Of a stretch of DNA of 64,000 nucleotides, positions 23,566-30,179 are shown one piece after another. The position numbers and the translations under genes are program-made. A model generated the notes under the pieces. It was not told where the DNA came from. It saw only the letters and a program-made list of their open reading frames with translations, and ran no database searches. The stretch comes from Gammaproteobacteria bacterium. Lineage in GTDB: Bacteria; Pseudomonadota; Gammaproteobacteria; Xanthomonadales; SZUA-5. Location of the stretch: contig JAUIFV010000004.1 of assembly GCA_030430155.1 (NCBI GenBank), forward strand, positions 1 to 64,000, written 5' to 3'. The stretch's first letter is position 1, and each line of letters starts with the position of its first letter.

Positions 23566-23919
23566 TCACTGACGACTGCGCAGCGCGGCCTTCGCAGCGC
23601 GATACAGCGCGCGCTTTTGGTCCACTTCGGGTAGCAGCGTAGACAGCGACAGCCGCGGTTGGTTGCCCAACTGCAGTTCCACCCCGTTTTCAGTCGTACG
23701 CAGGTCGATATCGATGCCGGCCGCGAAGGCGCGCAACTGCCCGAACCACCGGGTCCGGCCCACATCGATCGCATCGATAGCGACGGCCTCCGCCACGATG
23801 GGATGCTCAGCCTCAGTCTCTTCGACAGGCCCGACGCCCCGCAGGCGGTAAAGCGGCAGCTTCATCTCCGTCAGCACCGCGCGCTGCGATCCGCTCCAGT
23901 TGGCACCGAGGTCGGACAA
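23566..23919 (-). CDS. hypothetical protein, candidate DNA polymerase III psi subunit (HolD-like)
   Basis: This 117-aa soluble protein has no signature I can name with certainty. Its place just upstream of rimI (the holD-rimI order of E. coli), its size and its C-terminal helix (PEVDQKRALYRAAKAALR, comparable to the C-terminal helix of psi) suggest a divergent clamp-loader psi subunit. The N-terminal stretch MKLPLYRLRG could be the true start (internal Met 19). Against this, the middle of the protein is too diverged to align by eye. It is 3 bp from the preceding lipoprotein gene, in the same run of genes. Confidence 0.5.
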   Translation of the reverse strand: MSDLGANWSGSQRAVLTEMKLPLYRLRGVGPVEETEAEHPIVAEAVAIDAIDVGRTRWFGQLRAFAAGIDIDLRTTENGVELQLGNQPRLSLSTLLPEVDQKRALYRAAKAALRSRQ

Positions 23920-23922
23920 CGT

Positions 23923-24579
23923 CTACTCCGCCTTCTGTGCTTCCGCCACCGCGGCGACCAGATCATCGACGAAGCTGAGCAGGATCTCGTCCACCGCCAC
24001 GCTGAGCTCAGCCGTGCCGTCGGTCAGGCTCTCGCCTTGAGCCGGGCGCCGCAGGGTGTATTGCTTTTCCATCAGCGGCAGACGTGAGCCGTCGAAATCG
24101 GCGCGGATGCGCATCCCGGCGACCACTTCGCGGTTGCTGCCATCGACCCGGATCACTTCGAAGCGATTGAGCCGGATACTGACCCGGTAGGCCTCGATAC
24201 GCGGATCCAGTCGATTGGTGACCAGCGGGGCCAGGTTGCGCGCGTCGAACAGCTGCAGCGCGCGGCGCTGGATCAGCGAGGGCGGCGGATCGTTCCACAC
24301 CTGGTAGTGATATTGGGAGATGCGCAGACTGTCCGGATCGGTGGCGTAGAGTATTGGCCGTTCGCCGTGGACGCCGTCGGCCTGCACGCCGTTGACCACC
24401 AGTGGCGCCTGCAGTGGCGCCTGCTCAAAGGCCGTGGCCGTGGTCGCGGGCGACAGCCGGTAGTAGCGGAAATCCGGCAGCGGCGCGGGTCCGCTGCAGG
24501 CCACGATGAGCCCGGCCAGCAGGCCTCCGACGAGCAGTCTGGGTCGCAGCCAGCGCTGCAGGGGTAGGCGTCCTTTCAT
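23923..24579 (-). CDS. ABC-type transport auxiliary lipoprotein (PqiC/PF03886-like)
   Basis: This 218-aa lipoprotein has an N-terminal signal with lipobox LIVAC (Cys at about 28) followed by LPDFRYYRLSP, the start of the PF03886 ABC-transport auxiliary domain shared with PqiC/YmbA. Such lipoproteins are outer-membrane partners of MCE transporters. It lies 1 bp after the MlaD-like gene, so it likely receives or delivers lipid at the outer membrane in place of an MlaA/MlaC pair, which is absent here. The C-terminus (about 170-218) is alpha-helical. Confidence 0.85.
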   Translation of the reverse strand: MKGRLPLQRWLRPRLLVGGLLAGLIVACSGPAPLPDFRYYRLSPATTATAFEQAPLQAPLVVNGVQADGVHGERPILYATDPDSLRISQYHYQVWNDPPPSLIQRRALQLFDARNLAPLVTNRLDPRIEAYRVSIRLNRFEVIRVDGSNREVVAGMRIRADFDGSRLPLMEKQYTLRRPAQGESLTDGTAELSVAVDEILLSFVDDLVAAVAEAQKAE

Positions 24580-24580
24580 A

Positions 24581-25519
24581 CTAATCCCTCACATCATCGG
24601 CCTGCGGCGAGAACAGCAGCCGGTTGGGCGACTTGCGGATCTCGCGACTGAACTCGTCGACATGGCGACTGGCCGACTCCAGGTTGTAGGTGATTGCGTC
24701 GATGCGCTGGGCCACCGAAGACAGGGTCACGCGCAGGTCGGCGATGGCCTGCTCCACGTCGGGCGCAGACTTATCCACGGTGCTGCCCAAATCATCGAGG
24801 ATGCCGTCCAGCCGTTCGCGGGTGCCGGCGAGTTCGGCGGTGAGTTCGCGCAAATTGCCGGCGCTGGCCGCCGACTGTTCGAGGATGGTCTCCAGCCGGC
24901 CCTGATTGTCGGGCCCAAGGATCTGCTTGATCGATTCGGCGCCGTCGTTGAGCCTGCCGAGCAGCGCTTGCGCCTCGTCCAGCAGTTCCGGCGTGCTTTG
25001 CTCCAGCGCGCCGGAGAGGTTGTCCAAACGCTTGCCCAGCTTGTCGACCAGCGGGGTGAGCTTGTGGCGGGTCAGATCGGTGACCTCACCGGCCAACTCG
25101 CCGACGGCAGCGAAGATGTCGCCACCGTCCCGGCCTTCGATCTCGTCGCCAGGGTTGAGCATGCTGGTCGCTTCGCCCTCGCGGATGCCGATGTAGACGT
25201 CGGAAAGCAGCCCGCTGGAAAGCAGCGCGGCCACAGAGTCGGAGGGAATCTGCCAGTCCTTGGCTACCGAAAAGTCGACCTTGAAGCGGGTTCTGCCGTC
25301 GACCTGCTCAGGCTCCACCGACTCCACCTGGCCGACGCGGAAGCCCTGGTAATAGACCGCGCTGCCAAAGCCCAGTCCGGACACGTCGCTGTAGCGAACC
25401 ACGTACTCGTCGGTGGGGCCGGAACGGCCAGTGATCACATACAGCGACCCCAGCAGCAGAAACAGTGCGACCACAACCACCAGGCCGACCAGAAAATAAT
25501 TGACGTTGTCGCGTTTCAA
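24581..25519 (-). CDS. mlaD: MlaD-family MCE-domain protein
   Basis: This 312-aa periplasmic substrate-binding component of an Mla-type lipid transporter has an N-terminal anchor (about 9-30, FLVGLVVVVALFLLLGSLY), the MCE domain (about 35-120, with YQGFRVGQVESVEP and GLLSDVYIGI), then a long C-terminal helical region rich in Leu/Asp/Glu (about 130-300). It is much longer than E. coli MlaD (183 aa), the extra part being coiled-coil-like, which suggests a needle or tunnel reaching across the periplasm as in PqiB-type proteins. It is in the order mlaE-mlaF-mlaD-lipoprotein. Confidence 0.9.
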   Translation of the reverse strand: MKRDNVNYFLVGLVVVVALFLLLGSLYVITGRSGPTDEYVVRYSDVSGLGFGSAVYYQGFRVGQVESVEPEQVDGRTRFKVDFSVAKDWQIPSDSVAALLSSGLLSDVYIGIREGEATSMLNPGDEIEGRDGGDIFAAVGELAGEVTDLTRHKLTPLVDKLGKRLDNLSGALEQSTPELLDEAQALLGRLNDGAESIKQILGPDNQGRLETILEQSAASAGNLRELTAELAGTRERLDGILDDLGSTVDKSAPDVEQAIADLRVTLSSVAQRIDAITYNLESASRHVDEFSREIRKSPNRLLFSPQADDVRD

Positions 25520-25583
25520 GGCGCTTCTTCCCGCTCCCCCGGGGAGCTACGTGTTAGCTAATGGTAACCGTTGACTAGCCCGA

Positions 25584-26393
25584 CTAATCTTCCCCGGCGC
25601 CGGTCAGTCGTCGTAAGTACTCGTCTACATCCACATCCTGATCGCGTGGCCGTCGATTGAGCAGATCCTGGATCCGCTCGTTGTCGCTGGCCTTGACCTC
25701 GGCCACGCTGCCGGTCATCAGCACCTTGCCGTGGTCCAGCACGGTGATCTTGTCGGCAATCTTAAACGCGCTATCGAGCTCATGGGTGACGACCACGATG
25801 GTCATTCGCATCGCGTCGCGCAGCTTCAGGATCAGCTCATCGAGTTCGGCCGAGACCACCGGGTCCAAACCGGCCGACGGCTCATCGAAGAACAGCAGCT
25901 TGGGATCCATGACAATGGCGCGGGCCAGCGCAGCGCGCTTGATCATGCCGCCGGAAAGCTGGCTGGGCATCAAATCCTGGAAGCCGCCCAGATTGACCAC
26001 CTCCAGCTTCAGCCTGGTCATGATACGGATGGTGTTCTCGTCCAGCTGGAAGTGCTCACGCAGCGGCAGCGCGACGTTCTCGCCGACGCTCATCGAGGTG
26101 AACAGCGCACCGCCCTGGAAGGACACGCCGATCTCGCGTCTAAAGGCCATGCCCTCGCGCGGATCCATTTTGGCGATATCCCGGCCGAGCAGCTTGATGT
26201 GCCCTGAGCGCGGCTGATGCAGGCCCAGCAGATGACGCATCAGAGTGCTCTTGCCAGAGCCGGAGCCGCCCATGATGACCCGGATTTCGCCCTGGTTGAC
26301 CACGAAATCGACGTCATCGAGGATCTTCCGGGGACCGTAGTAGGTCACCAGATTGCGCACGTCAATTACCGGTTCTGGCTGGGCTTGGCTCAT
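25584..26393 (-). CDS. mlaF: MlaF-like lipid ABC transporter ATPase
   Basis: This 269-aa ATPase has Walker A GGSGSGKSTLMRHLLGL (about 40-56), signature LSGGMIKRAALARA and Walker B LLFFDEPSAGLDPV, the Mla/TTG2A form. The Ser-Ala-Gly after EP is typical of MlaF. The ATG at 26393 is preferred over 26471 since it gives the normal N-terminus (VIDVRNLVTYYG). It ends with a charged tail (DQDVDVDEYLRRL). It lies between the permease and MCE genes and energises their lipid transfer. Confidence 0.94.
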   Translation of the reverse strand: MSQAQPEPVIDVRNLVTYYGPRKILDDVDFVVNQGEIRVIMGGSGSGKSTLMRHLLGLHQPRSGHIKLLGRDIAKMDPREGMAFRREIGVSFQGGALFTSMSVGENVALPLREHFQLDENTIRIMTRLKLEVVNLGGFQDLMPSQLSGGMIKRAALARAIVMDPKLLFFDEPSAGLDPVVSAELDELILKLRDAMRMTIVVVTHELDSAFKIADKITVLDHGKVLMTGSVAEVKASDNERIQDLLNRRPRDQDVDVDEYLRRLTGAGED

Positions 26394-26421
26394 CGCTCCT
26401 GCGTCGTACTCTCGTTCTTGT

Positions 26422-27225
26422 TTATCGATTGAGGAAGAAGCTGAAGACCATGTCGGCGACCAGGATCGCACAGATCGACATCACCACCGCACGGGTGGTG
26501 GCCTTGCCCACGCCCTCGGCACCGCCGGTCACCGCAAAGCCGGTGCCCACGCCGATCAGCACGATCAGAATGCCGAACACCAATCCCTTGATCAGTCCCT
26601 GCATCACATCCCAGGGCTCCAGCGCTTCCAGCGACTGGTGGAAATAGCTGTACAGGCTGATGTCCAGCGGACCGGCGCTGAACAAGCCACCGCCCAAGAT
26701 GGCGAAGAAGTCGGAAATGATGGTCAGGCAGGGCAGCATGACGATTGCCGCAATCAGCGGCGGCGCGGCCAGATAGCGGGCCGGTTCCACGCCGATGACC
26801 CGCAGCGCATCCACTTCCTGAGAGACCACCATCGAGCCCAGCCGTGCGGCCAGCGCCGAGGCGGTGCGCCCGGCCACTACGATGCCGGTGATCAGCGGAC
26901 CGAACTCGCGAGTCACCCCCAGGGCGACTCCGATGACGATGGCGCTCTCGGCCCCGAAGGCCTTGAGCTGGGCGATGCCGTTGATGGCCAGGGAGAGGCC
27001 GATAACCATCGACAGCAGGGCGACGATGGGAATGGCGTCGGCGCCGATCTGGCGCATCTGGTGCAGCACATGGTGCCAGCGCACCGGCTGGCCGCGGCGC
27101 GGTCCGAAGACCAGAAAGAACAGGCTCTCGCCCAGCAGCGAGCCGATGTAGCCCAGCTCCTCGATACGCTCCAGGCTGCTGCGGCCGAGCTGGGAAACCG
27201 CGCGGTGCACGGAATTGATGCTCAT
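26422..27225 (-). CDS. mlaE: MlaE-like lipid ABC transporter permease
   Basis: This 267-aa inner-membrane permease of the MlaE family has an amphipathic N-terminus and about five or six membrane segments. The conserved loop GVTREFGPLITGIVVAGRT, followed by ALAARLGSMVVSQEVDALRV, is the family signature that contacts MlaF. It lies 31 bp after the STAS gene and 28 bp before mlaF in the same direction. It forms the inner-membrane channel between MlaF and the MCE ring. Confidence 0.95.
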   Translation of the reverse strand: MSINSVHRAVSQLGRSSLERIEELGYIGSLLGESLFFLVFGPRRGQPVRWHHVLHQMRQIGADAIPIVALLSMVIGLSLAINGIAQLKAFGAESAIVIGVALGVTREFGPLITGIVVAGRTASALAARLGSMVVSQEVDALRVIGVEPARYLAAPPLIAAIVMLPCLTIISDFFAILGGGLFSAGPLDISLYSYFHQSLEALEPWDVMQGLIKGLVFGILIVLIGVGTGFAVTGGAEGVGKATTRAVVMSICAILVADMVFSFFLNR

Positions 27226-27256
27226 CCGCTAGACCCTCGCCCGCCGCGCAGCTGCA

Positions 27257-27595
27257 TCAGCTCTGCGCCGCCTGCTCGAGGGAGGGGAAGATCGGAAAGA
27301 CGCGATCCAAACGAGCCAGCTCCAACACCGCGATGACTGGCTGACTGACTGCCACCAGGCTGAAGTGCTGACCCTTGCCGCGGGCGCTCTGGAAGCCTTC
27401 CACCAGCGCCGCGATGCCGGAGGAATCGATGTAGCTGACCTTGGACAGATCCACCGCCACCGGTTGACTCTTGCCCAGCGCGTCCAATATGGCCTTGCGC
27501 AGCTTCTGCGACCAGGACAGGTCGACCTCTCCTTGCACCATCACCACCTGGAACCCACTCTCCTCGGTGGTAGTACAACCGTTTTCTTGCGCCAT
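27257..27595 (-). CDS. STAS-domain protein (MlaB / anti-sigma-factor-antagonist type)
   Basis: This 112-aa single STAS domain (about 14-105) has VVMVQGEVDLSWSQKLRKAI and the phosphorylation-site loop SYIDSSGIAALVEGFQ with two Ser at the position used by SpoIIAA/RsbV-type proteins. Its place directly before mlaE fits an MlaB subunit, which in E. coli binds MlaF and stabilises the complex. Directly upstream lies a gene with both phosphatase and serine-kinase domains, so this STAS protein may be switched by phosphorylation. Whether its partner is MlaF, a sigma regulator or both cannot be told from sequence. Confidence 0.88.
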   Translation of the reverse strand: MAQENGCTTTEESGFQVVMVQGEVDLSWSQKLRKAILDALGKSQPVAVDLSKVSYIDSSGIAALVEGFQSARGKGQHFSLVAVSQPVIAVLELARLDRVFPIFPSLEQAAQS

Positions 27596-27651
27596 TCCCC
27601 ATCTCCTAGCACCGTCGCACTGCCGCGGCGGCCCATTGCGAACCCTACATT

Positions 27652-29346
27652 CTACGCCGCTACCGACGCCACCTTGGCGGCGCTGTTGAACTGCAGTCGC
27701 TTGACCATGCGCAGCACATTGCCCTGGCCCTGCTCTGGTTTTTCAAAGCCCCATTCATCCATCACCATGTCAATCAGATTGACCCCCAGGCCCCCTGGGC
27801 GGCACTGGTTCAAATCGCGCGGCTTGATCGCCTCGGCATCGACCGCCTTGGCCCAATCGCGCAGCACGAACTCCACTGCGTCGCCGCGGCGCCAGATGTC
27901 CAGACTCATGCGTCCGCCCGGATCGCCCTGATAGGCATGCCGGATCACGTTGGCGGTGGCCTCGTCGATAGCCAGTACCACCCGCTGGCGAACTTCGGTG
28001 GGCACCGTCAGCGCGGTGAGCTGGCGGTCCACGGTTTTGCGCACCAGGCGCAGGCATTCGGCGTCGCAGCAGATACTGATGCCGCCCAGATACTGTGCCT
28101 CCTCGCCATTCTCCTCCACCAGCATCAGCGTGGTGTCGTCGGCCAGCTGCATCCGCCGCAGCTGCGAGACCAGACCGCGCAGCCGAGCTCTGGGGCTCAG
28201 CTCCACCACCGCATCGATCAGTTCCTGGAAGCCCTCGATGCCGATGGTCTCGCTTTCTCCGGCGCGCACGTCGGTTGCGCCGTCGCTGAAGATGTAGGCA
28301 CTGCCATCGCCCAGGAAGGCGCGATTGCTGGGGTAGTCGATGCCCGGCAGGATGCCCAGCGGCGGGCCGTCGGCAATGATCTGCTGAAAGCTGCCGTCCG
28401 GCTTGCGCAGCAGCAGCGGCGGCAGGCCGCCATTGGACCATTCCAGTACGCCGCTGATCGGATCGTAGTAGCCGGCCAGCACGCAAACGAAGCGGCCGCC
28501 GGTGACCGTCGTGCAGATCTCGTCATTGACCCGCTTCAGCCACAGATCCGGCGGCGTGCCTTCCTTGCCGGCCCAGCGCAACAGCGAGGAGGCGCGCACC
28601 ATCAGCAGCGCTGCGTCCATGCCCTTGCCGGAGACGTCGCCGACGCAAAAGGCGACTCGTCCGTCGGGCAGGGTGAAGTGATCGTAGAAGTCGCCGGAAA
28701 TCTCCCGCGCGGGCAGATTGATACCCACCACCGGGCAGTCCTTCTCGCGCTTGGGCAGCAGGTCCTTTTGCATCTGTCTGGCGAGTTGGAACTCGCGGCG
28801 GATGCGCTCCTGCTCCATCAAATCCTCGGCCAGCCGGGCATTGGATAGGGCCAGCGTGGTAGGCACGGCAAGCAGGCGCAGGATGTCGCGGTCGTGATCG
28901 TTGAACAACTCGCCGCCGCGCTTGTTGAGCACCTGCAGAGCGCCGATCGCGCCTTCACCGCTGGTCAGCGGTGCGCACAATATCGAGCGGGTGACGAAGC
29001 CGCCGACGTCGCCGGCGTGGTCGGCATCGGTCTCCACGTTCTGCACCAGCTGCACCTTGTTCTGCTTGATCGCGCGGCCGACGATGCCGCGCCCTTTGGG
29101 CACGCGCAGGCCGGTGACATCGACCGGGCCGAAGCAGGCGCGACAGACCAACTCGCCCTTGGAGCCGTCGATCAAGAACAGCGCCGCCGCTTCGGCGTTC
29201 ATGTGCGCGGCGATCTGCTCCACGGCCTGGCGCACGGTCTGATTGACATCCAGCGTGGTGGCGAAGGCCTGGGAAAAGTCGGCCAGCACCGCGACTTCAT
29301 CAGAGCCAATGCCCTGTGCCACGGCGGCGACTTTGGCCGTACTCAC
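27652..29346 (-). CDS. GAF - PP2C (SpoIIE) phosphatase - HATPase partner-switch regulator
   Basis: This 564-aa cytoplasmic protein has three modules. The first is a GAF sensor (about 22-170, LCAPLTSGEGAIGALQVLNK). The second is a PP2C/SpoIIE-type phosphatase (about 195-395) with the metal Asp residues in EISGDFYDHF, VGDVSGKGMDAALLM, FSDGATDVRAGE and LADDTTLML. The third is a C-terminal GHKL ATPase (about 415-550) with the N-box AIDEATANVIRHAY and the G-box GLGVNLIDMVMDE. Carrying both a phosphatase and a serine-kinase-type module, it should set the phosphorylation state of the STAS protein encoded next to it. Its ATG overlaps the pssA stop by 4 nt. Confidence 0.9.
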   Translation of the reverse strand: MSTAKVAAVAQGIGSDEVAVLADFSQAFATTLDVNQTVRQAVEQIAAHMNAEAAALFLIDGSKGELVCRACFGPVDVTGLRVPKGRGIVGRAIKQNKVQLVQNVETDADHAGDVGGFVTRSILCAPLTSGEGAIGALQVLNKRGGELFNDHDRDILRLLAVPTTLALSNARLAEDLMEQERIRREFQLARQMQKDLLPKREKDCPVVGINLPAREISGDFYDHFTLPDGRVAFCVGDVSGKGMDAALLMVRASSLLRWAGKEGTPPDLWLKRVNDEICTTVTGGRFVCVLAGYYDPISGVLEWSNGGLPPLLLRKPDGSFQQIIADGPPLGILPGIDYPSNRAFLGDGSAYIFSDGATDVRAGESETIGIEGFQELIDAVVELSPRARLRGLVSQLRRMQLADDTTLMLVEENGEEAQYLGGISICCDAECLRLVRKTVDRQLTALTVPTEVRQRVVLAIDEATANVIRHAYQGDPGGRMSLDIWRRGDAVEFVLRDWAKAVDAEAIKPRDLNQCRPGGLGVNLIDMVMDEWGFEKPEQGQGNVLRMVKRLQFNSAAKVASVAA

Positions 29347-30179
29347 TGCGAGTCCTCGGCCGCTGAGCGCGGCGTCTCCTCGCCGCTGTCAGCGTCCCTG
29401 TTGGCAGCGCTGTGCTCCCAAACCTGCCGTCGCTGGCGACGGCGCAGGCGCCGCCACAGCCACCAGACCGGTCCGGAAGCGGCGTAGATCAAGGACAGCG
29501 TGAGCAGCACATTGGGCGGATGCGCGGCGAGCAGTGCCAGAGCCACCACCGCCACCAGGATCCACAAAAAGCGCACCCGCTCCGGCCACACCTTGAAGCT
29601 GTAGTAGGGCAGTCGAGTGACCATGGCCAGCGCCAGCCCGGTGGTCAGCAGCGGCGTCAGCCAGACCAGCGCGCGGCGATCTCCGCCGAAATCCTCCACC
29701 GCCCAGACCAGCGCCATCAGCGTGCCGGCTGCGGCCGGACTGGCCAGTCCCTGGAAGAAATGCTTATCCACCTTGCCCGCATTGGTGTTGAAGCGGGCCA
29801 GGCGCAGCGCCGCGCAGGCAGCGTAGACGAACGCCACCAGCCAGCCCACCTTGCCCCAGAAATCGCCGTAGGCCTTCAGTCCCGACAGCGACCAGCTGTA
29901 GATCACCAGGGCCGGCGCCAGACCGAAGCTGACCAGATCGGAAAGGCTGTCATATTGAATGCCGAACTCGCTCTGGGTGTTGGTCAGACGAGCGATGCGG
30001 CCATCCAGGCCGTCGAGCAGCCCGGCGATAAAAACCGCTACCGCGGCGGTAACGAAATGGCCGTTGAAACCGGCGATGATGGCGTAGAAGCCGGCAAACA
30101 TGGCGCCGGTGGTAAACAGATTGGGGAGCAAATAGATTGCTCCGGAGCGGCGCATCCGTTGTTCCACTGAATCACCCAT
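29343..30179 (-). CDS. pssA: CDP-diacylglycerol-serine O-phosphatidyltransferase (phosphatidylserine synthase)
   Basis: This 278-aa integral membrane enzyme makes phosphatidylserine, the precursor of phosphatidylethanolamine. The CDP-alcohol phosphotransferase motif is intact: DGRIARLTNTQSEFGIQYDS then LSD (D-G-x2-A-R-x8-G-x3-D-x3-D), near residues 55-78, with about seven membrane segments. The ATG at 30179 starts the family-like MGDSVEQRMRRSGAIYLLPN; the longer frame to 30389 has no homology. It is first in the long minus-strand run that continues into the partner-switch and Mla-type genes. Confidence 0.92.
   Translation of the reverse strand: MGDSVEQRMRRSGAIYLLPNLFTTGAMFAGFYAIIAGFNGHFVTAAVAVFIAGLLDGLDGRIARLTNTQSEFGIQYDSLSDLVSFGLAPALVIYSWSLSGLKAYGDFWGKVGWLVAFVYAACAALRLARFNTNAGKVDKHFFQGLASPAAAGTLMALVWAVEDFGGDRRALVWLTPLLTTGLALAMVTRLPYYSFKVWPERVRFLWILVAVVALALLAAHPPNVLLTLSLIYAASGPVWWLWRRLRRRQRRQVWEHSAANRDADSGEETPRSAAEDSQ

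Follow-up and report, generated by a model that had tools for sequence, protein, structure and literature searches.

The stretch of DNA analysed here (the window: 64,000 nucleotides, positions 1 to 64,000 of contig JAUIFV010000004.1 in the gammaproteobacterial assembly GCA_030430155.1) carries on its minus strand, between positions 23923 and 30179, seven genes that bring together an MCE lipid ABC transporter and a candidate partner-switch module. A first-pass annotation had described this run from the sequence alone; we find it as placed, with each of the seven products above the Pfam gathering cut-off (CDP-OH_P_transf; GAF, SpoIIE and HATPase_c_2; STAS; MlaE; ABC_tran; MlaD; ABC_trans_aux). 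First comes pssA (29343..30179), encoding CDP-diacylglycerol-serine O-phosphatidyltransferase, which matches PF01066 with 72.6 bits and TIGR00473 with 103 bits, slightly below the cut-off of 107. The next gene (27652..29346) starts with GTG, overlaps the pssA stop by 4 bp and encodes a GAF-PP2C-HATPase protein (GPH for short, gene or protein) of 564 residues, with a GAF domain at about 32–167, a SpoIIE-type PP2C phosphatase domain at 227–411 and an anti-sigma-type serine kinase domain (HATPase_c_2) at 429–549. A 112-residue STAS protein follows (27257..27595; Pfam STAS, 69.9 bits), then the MlaE permease (26422..27225; 234 bits) and the MlaF ATPase (25584..26393; ABC_tran, 110 bits), whose top PDB sequence matches are the MlaF proteins of Acinetobacter, Pseudomonas and E. 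coli and which bears the C-terminal extension VDVDEYLRRLTG. The run is completed by a long MlaD (MCE) protein of 312 residues with a helical C-terminal part (24581..25519; 54 bits), for which a TTG start fits the agreement of its N-terminus, MKRDNVNY, with homologues, and by a PF03886, PqiC-like outer-membrane lipoprotein (23923..24579; ABC_trans_aux, 38.3 bits; lipobox LIVAC).

The DSSG site of the STAS protein and the key residues of the phosphatase and kinase domains beside it, on which the first-pass annotation had remarked, are intact. In the window GPH the HATPase domain has the N, G1 and G2 boxes of a serine kinase (N-box E462/N466, D497, GGLG) and the PP2C domain its metal ligands (D219, D237, D355, D403/D404); these catalytic residues are kept in 54–55 of 55 and 59–61 of 61 homologues. 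The G1 box reads DxA instead of DxG in 53 of 55 family members. The STAS protein contains the motif YIDSSG (D57-S58-S59-G60), and the predicted phospho-acceptor of this D-S-x-G site is Ser58, encoded at 27422-27424. All 117 distinct HATPase-linked STAS proteins carry D-S-S-G, at a mean pairwise identity of only 48%, and its first serine corresponds to the residue phosphorylated in SpoIIAA (Ser58 in SpoIIAA numbering). Ser58 of the window protein also aligns with Thr52 of E. coli MlaB. By profile, the protein passes the anti-sigma-antagonist model TIGR00377 (73.5 bits, cut-off 53.45) and falls short of the curated MlaB model NF033618 (26.5 bits, cut-off 90). Kinase-linked STAS proteins are without exception free-standing and of the anti-anti-sigma type. 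Among 44 STAS-MlaE fusions with no kinase gene nearby, the site residue is T in 22, S in 17, I in three and A in two, which weakens a serine or threonine at this position as a marker of kinase linkage.

The closest named relatives of the window genome are metagenome-assembled genomes of the Lysobacterales, and a set of 41 genomes (its own and others of its family and order) yields GPH orthologues of 47–87% identity. The order pssA-GPH-STAS-MlaE-MlaF-MlaD-lipoprotein-x-rimI, in which x is a further open reading frame, recurs in many families of the order. In some relatives the run is split (L and G numbers denote loci and genomes, respectively): pssA-GPH-STAS-MlaE (L035-L038) lies apart from MlaD-lipoprotein-rimI (L083-L086; with MlaF in G003 and G008), or pssA-GPH (L043/L044) apart from STAS-MlaE-F-D (L089/L090). 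Even then GPH keeps to pssA and STAS keeps to MlaE. Beyond the order, we called an MlaE type A when its score against the window MlaE was 240 bits or more; the class below it, marked by an N-terminal STAS-like extension, reached at most 175 bits. Of 369 gammaproteobacterial genomes, 46 carry a type-A MlaE; in 42 of the 45 readable neighbourhoods it adjoins STAS and HATPase genes, and in 39 of those 42 a PP2C gene is adjacent as well. The 80 named loci listed from 513 relatives include GPH-STAS-MlaE-F-D-lipoprotein runs in Lysobacterales, other Gammaproteobacteria and Rhodospirillales, Dongia among them, and a phylum-wide sample yielded more distant cases (L327, L329). Since the gene order is shared between families, between orders and between two classes (Gamma- and Alphaproteobacteria), the arrangement is not due to chance, and the possibility that it is peculiar to one genome, which the first-pass annotation had left to a gene-order survey, is ruled out. 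Across this range the sensor domain is exchangeable, being GAF in the window and HDOD in several others, while phosphatase, kinase and STAS are constant. The HATPase is its own adjacent gene in some relatives, and three loci (L281-L283) retain HATPase and STAS with the PP2C gene gone from the operon. Two further loci are complementary: L285 (7377-12677) holds only MlaE-F-D-lipoprotein and L140 (3759-7842) only GPH-HATPase-STAS. In both, DUF1841 lies on one flank and FHA with a second PP2C on the opposite flank, which looks as though a single ancestral locus had shed different halves.

The partner that accompanies the switch most constantly is found in the ATPase. A C-terminal Y[LM]xxL motif, typically DEYLRRLTG, is present in 116 of 117 complete type-A MlaF proteins (a count that includes a by-eye reading of 13 non-matches to a stricter pattern) and in one of 62 MlaF proteins from other MCE operons. 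The sole type-A MlaF without it is that of L285, from the lineage in which STAS and kinase have been lost. In E. coli the corresponding extension supplies Tyr261, Leu265 and Leu266, which pack against MlaB (PMC7367683), and we refer to it as the clamp. At five loci (L139, L142, L153, L154, L162) kinase and STAS lie beside an MlaE of another kind and a short MlaD, and here too MlaF bears the clamp. Two of them, L139 (4938-10722) and L162 (1409-7459), join the PP2C-HATPase-STAS module to a canonical Mla set with MlaA and MlaC as judged by Pfam; at L139 MlaF is on the opposite strand. In three genomes (G082, G158, G222) the phosphatase-kinase cassette is unlinked and lies elsewhere in the genome from the MlaF-E-D operon; it includes STAS in G082 and G158, while in G222 STAS is not visible at the contig edge. 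Each of the three genomes has one clamp-bearing MlaF, and their canonical MlaF-E-D operons, which have MlaC-like and MlaA-like neighbours (L349:2445-6093, L350:2442-5905 and L351:2235-5852, respectively), have no detectable STAS/MlaB gene beside them. Indeed, a clamp-bearing MlaF was present in every tested genome having cassette and STAS. By this pattern of co-inheritance it is MlaF, rather than MlaE or MlaD, that travels with the switch, and the simplest reading of the unlinked cases is that the STAS protein of the cassette acts as the MlaB of that MlaF. The genomic evidence thus supports the view that the STAS/kinase/phosphatase unit is part of the transporter system and no chance neighbour.

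As to the transporter itself, MlaE, MlaF and an MCE protein are encoded together in conserved order, as in MCE lipid ABC transporters generally, and like them it may move phospholipid between membranes. It is not a canonical Mla system: neither the run nor the whole assembly (5.06 Mb in 287 contigs, 96.6% complete) contains MlaC or MlaA (PF05494, PF04333). Their absence from the run had been pointed out in the first-pass annotation, which stressed the missing MlaC. The absence stands and the emphasis does not, because among the MCE operons of Proteobacteria those of type I with a PF03886 (DUF330) lipoprotein are the most frequent and usually have no MlaC (PMC5561183), and because relatives (L139 and L162) join the module to both proteins. 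Within the order, MlaC and MlaA occur together in three of 22 genomes with the system, versus 16 of 19 without it (Fisher p = 7e-6, relatedness ignored), so that the system apparently takes the place of canonical Mla there. The window assembly has two MCE genes; the second belongs to another MlaE-F-D-lipoprotein operon (L002, L102), where we found neither a kinase nor a phosphatase nor a free STAS gene. The MlaE of that operon (G000:C162, L102:966-2198) has a long N-terminal extension; relatives of its class show a weak STAS_2 match in the extension, with DTAG, DAAG or DIAG at the phospho-site.

A contact between kinase and STAS protein, which the first-pass annotation had proposed to examine by structure prediction, is predicted. 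We took advantage of a locus from the window's genus (L033) in which the HATPase and STAS genes are in frame, giving a natural read-through of 279 residues with a linker of about 24, and modelled it with AlphaFold2 from an alignment that combined 21 read-through rows with about 100 separate ones. The model has a mean predicted local distance difference test score (pLDDT) of 90.6, with low confidence in the linker only, and a predicted template modelling score (pTM) of 0.84. By our own estimate two unplaced domains of such sizes would score about 0.5, so the HATPase and STAS domains are, in the model, docked against each other with confidence. Among solved structures, the closest Foldseek matches were SpoIIAB and RsbW for one half of the model and RsbV, TM1442 and SpoIIAA for the other. 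The predicted complex is of the kind that a partner switch calls for.

Taken together, we consider it likely that the window encodes an MCE transporter resembling Mpc of Brucella abortus, in which the position of MlaB is occupied by a phosphorylatable STAS protein of the anti-anti-sigma type that toggles between MlaF and a dedicated kinase. In E. coli, MlaB is a STAS protein that sits on MlaF in the MlaFEDB complex (PMC7367683, PMC5016091); its T52 occupies the middle of the MlaF interface, and the T52E substitution weakens binding (PMC7367683). By analogy with E. coli MlaFB and with the SpoIIAB/RsbW systems, unphosphorylated STAS would dock over Ser58 on the helical domain of MlaF, where the C-terminal clamp of the neighbouring MlaF would secure it, and would keep the transporter assembled and active. 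The HATPase domain would bind the same face of STAS and phosphorylate Ser58, whereupon STAS would leave MlaF and transport would fall. The PP2C domain, gated by its GAF (elsewhere HDOD) sensor, would then strip the phosphate and restore transport. The switch could also run with the opposite sign, for which HsbR and CrsR, with the STAS proteins they control, set a precedent. The first-pass annotation had suggested that lipid traffic is switched by STAS phosphorylation: the association of the unit with the transporter supports this in part and the predicted HATPase-STAS docking agrees with it, while STAS-MlaF docking, phosphorylation and the direction of the switch are inferred from the characterised systems.

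Several observations weigh against a toggle of this kind. The window STAS is nearer in sequence to RsbV/SpoIIAA than to MlaB, and since most kinase-less STAS domains also have S or T at the site, the residue alone is no proof of phosphorylation. In E. coli, MlaB T52A still bound and yet was non-functional (PMC7367683), and the MlaF of Veillonella has a C-terminal extension though there is no MlaB there (PMC10665443). Three of the 45 type-A MlaE neighbourhoods (L284, L285, L288) have no adjacent STAS or kinase gene. On STAS-MlaF contact, an AlphaFold2 model of a STAS-MlaE-MlaF read-through (L034) reached a pTM of 0.49; as the known MlaE-MlaF contact was likewise unplaced, the model speaks neither for nor against it. 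In a mean-field direct coupling analysis of 102 paired operons the pairs STAS-MlaF, STAS-HATPase and STAS-MlaE scored about the same as the sham pair HATPase-MlaF, which indicates that lineage signal dominates.

Of the other explanations, the one that survives best holds that STAS is a permanent, MlaB-like structural subunit and that the kinase and phosphatase act mainly on it, to control assembly or turnover, or on a second substrate, with no acute gating of transport. E. coli MlaB, whose main role is to stabilise MlaF (PMC7367683), would fit such a subunit, and a built-in STAS is clearly possible given the kinase-less STAS-MlaE fusions of the window genome's relatives and of Brucella Mpc (PMC12436622). 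We nevertheless think it unlikely, as the linked STAS is always separate and of the anti-anti-sigma type with an invariant DSSG, beside a kinase and a phosphatase that retain all their catalytic residues. Somewhat less probable again is a switch for an unlinked target such as a sigma factor, FlgM or a diguanylate cyclase, with GPH and STAS sharing the operon only for co-expression. HsbR and CrsR, in which PP2C and HATPase follow one another in the same order, target RpoS, FlgM or HsbD (PMC6482189), and in G082, G158 and G222 the cassette does lie apart from the transporter. Yet in those genomes it co-occurs with a clamp-bearing MlaF whose operon has no MlaB; elsewhere STAS remains by MlaE when GPH leaves (L089, L090), the 42 of 45 linkage extends over diverse families, and no sigma or anti-sigma gene is present in the module operons read (unlinked targets were not searched).

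The weakest explanation, that the main task of the module is to couple phosphatidylserine synthesis with lipid export through a regulator acting on PssA as well as the transporter, has in its favour that pssA lies directly upstream of GPH in 54 of the 80 named loci listed (mostly within 50 bp and often overlapping) and that this pair persists even where STAS and transporter genes lie elsewhere, but it is very improbable, given that operons with the same module in other Gammaproteobacteria and in Alphaproteobacteria have no pssA and that co-transcription in one lineage sufficiently explains the linkage. Since the pssA-GPH linkage is confined to Lysobacterales and some near relatives, coupling to phosphatidylserine synthesis, which the first-pass annotation had raised with a "perhaps", is at most a local addition; the linkage that prompted it is real and its generality is not. 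Examples of pssA-GPH with neither STAS nor transporter genes alongside include L209, L217 and L237 (Marinicella) and similar loci; in G016 and G034, where pssA-GPH stands alone, STAS-MlaE-F-D is located elsewhere in the genome.

Returning to the STAS toggle, a broader form of it would be a widespread partner switch that acts directly on the ATPase of lipid ABC transporters, with STAS shuttling between MlaF and the kinase/phosphatase, serving both the long-MlaD/lipoprotein and the canonical MlaD-MlaC-MlaA types, also in trans, and in Lysobacterales tied to phosphatidylserine synthesis by co-expression. We regard the chances of this broader form as evenly balanced. Should the toggle prove right, many Proteobacteria would have fast, reversible, signal-driven control over their outer-membrane lipid traffic, and switches built on STAS would extend beyond gene expression. 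The regulation of MlaB and Mla has been called an open question, phosphorylation having been proposed with no kinase named (PMC7367683); here kinase, phosphatase, sensor and STAS are encoded with the transporter in many genomes, and defined proteins and residues are now at hand for testing the phospho-switch idea.

Two smaller features lie in or beside the run. The gap between mlaF and mlaD contains a perfect GC-rich palindrome, GCTCCCCGGGGGAGC (25533-25547), from which an RNA hairpin could form. An open reading frame of 117 residues (23569-23919), conserved in position between the lipoprotein gene and rimI, has no Pfam or NCBIfam match; its placement ahead of rimI recalls, we presume, that of holD in E. 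coli.

The transporter part and the PP2C-HATPase-STAS regulators are each known, and we found no published description of their combination in the open-access literature, where no paper contained both MlaE and SpoIIE and none brought phospholipid and STAS together with partner switching and an ABC transporter (a scope that does not take in subscription papers or preprints). As in E. coli MlaFEDB, the STAS protein is encoded with MlaE, MlaF and MlaD, its Ser58 matches Thr52 of MlaB, and MlaF bears Tyr and Leu residues in a C-terminal extension, which in E. coli clamps MlaB. Unlike MlaB, which has no known kinase, the window STAS is of the SpoIIAA/RsbV type and is served by a kinase and a phosphatase of its own; where E. 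coli uses MlaC and MlaA, the operon encodes a long MlaD and a PF03886 lipoprotein. The characterised Mpc system of Brucella abortus (MpcE-F-D-A), whose STAS domain is fused to the permease (PMC12436622), shares the set of MlaE, MlaF, long MlaD and PqiC-like lipoprotein, the lack of MlaC and the association of STAS with MlaE, whereas the window STAS is a separate 112-residue protein and no kinase or phosphatase has been described for Mpc. On the regulatory side, HsbR-HsbA of Pseudomonas (PMC6482189) and SypE-SypA of Vibrio fischeri (PMC3610818) are pairs in which a bifunctional PP2C-HATPase regulator acts on a STAS protein; as in these and in CrsR-CrsA of Shewanella, sensor, PP2C and HATPase are joined in one protein, which there controls a single STAS by serine phosphorylation. 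Those regulators have receiver-domain sensors, in contrast to the GAF of the window module and the HDOD of others, and their outputs are sigma or anti-sigma factors, a diguanylate cyclase or a biofilm target not yet known, rather than a transporter. RsbU-RsbW-RsbV and SpoIIE-SpoIIAB-SpoIIAA of Bacillus have the same catalytic folds and the same acceptor position, but there the kinase is itself the anti-sigma factor, the phosphatase is a different protein from the kinase, and the switch acts on transcription.

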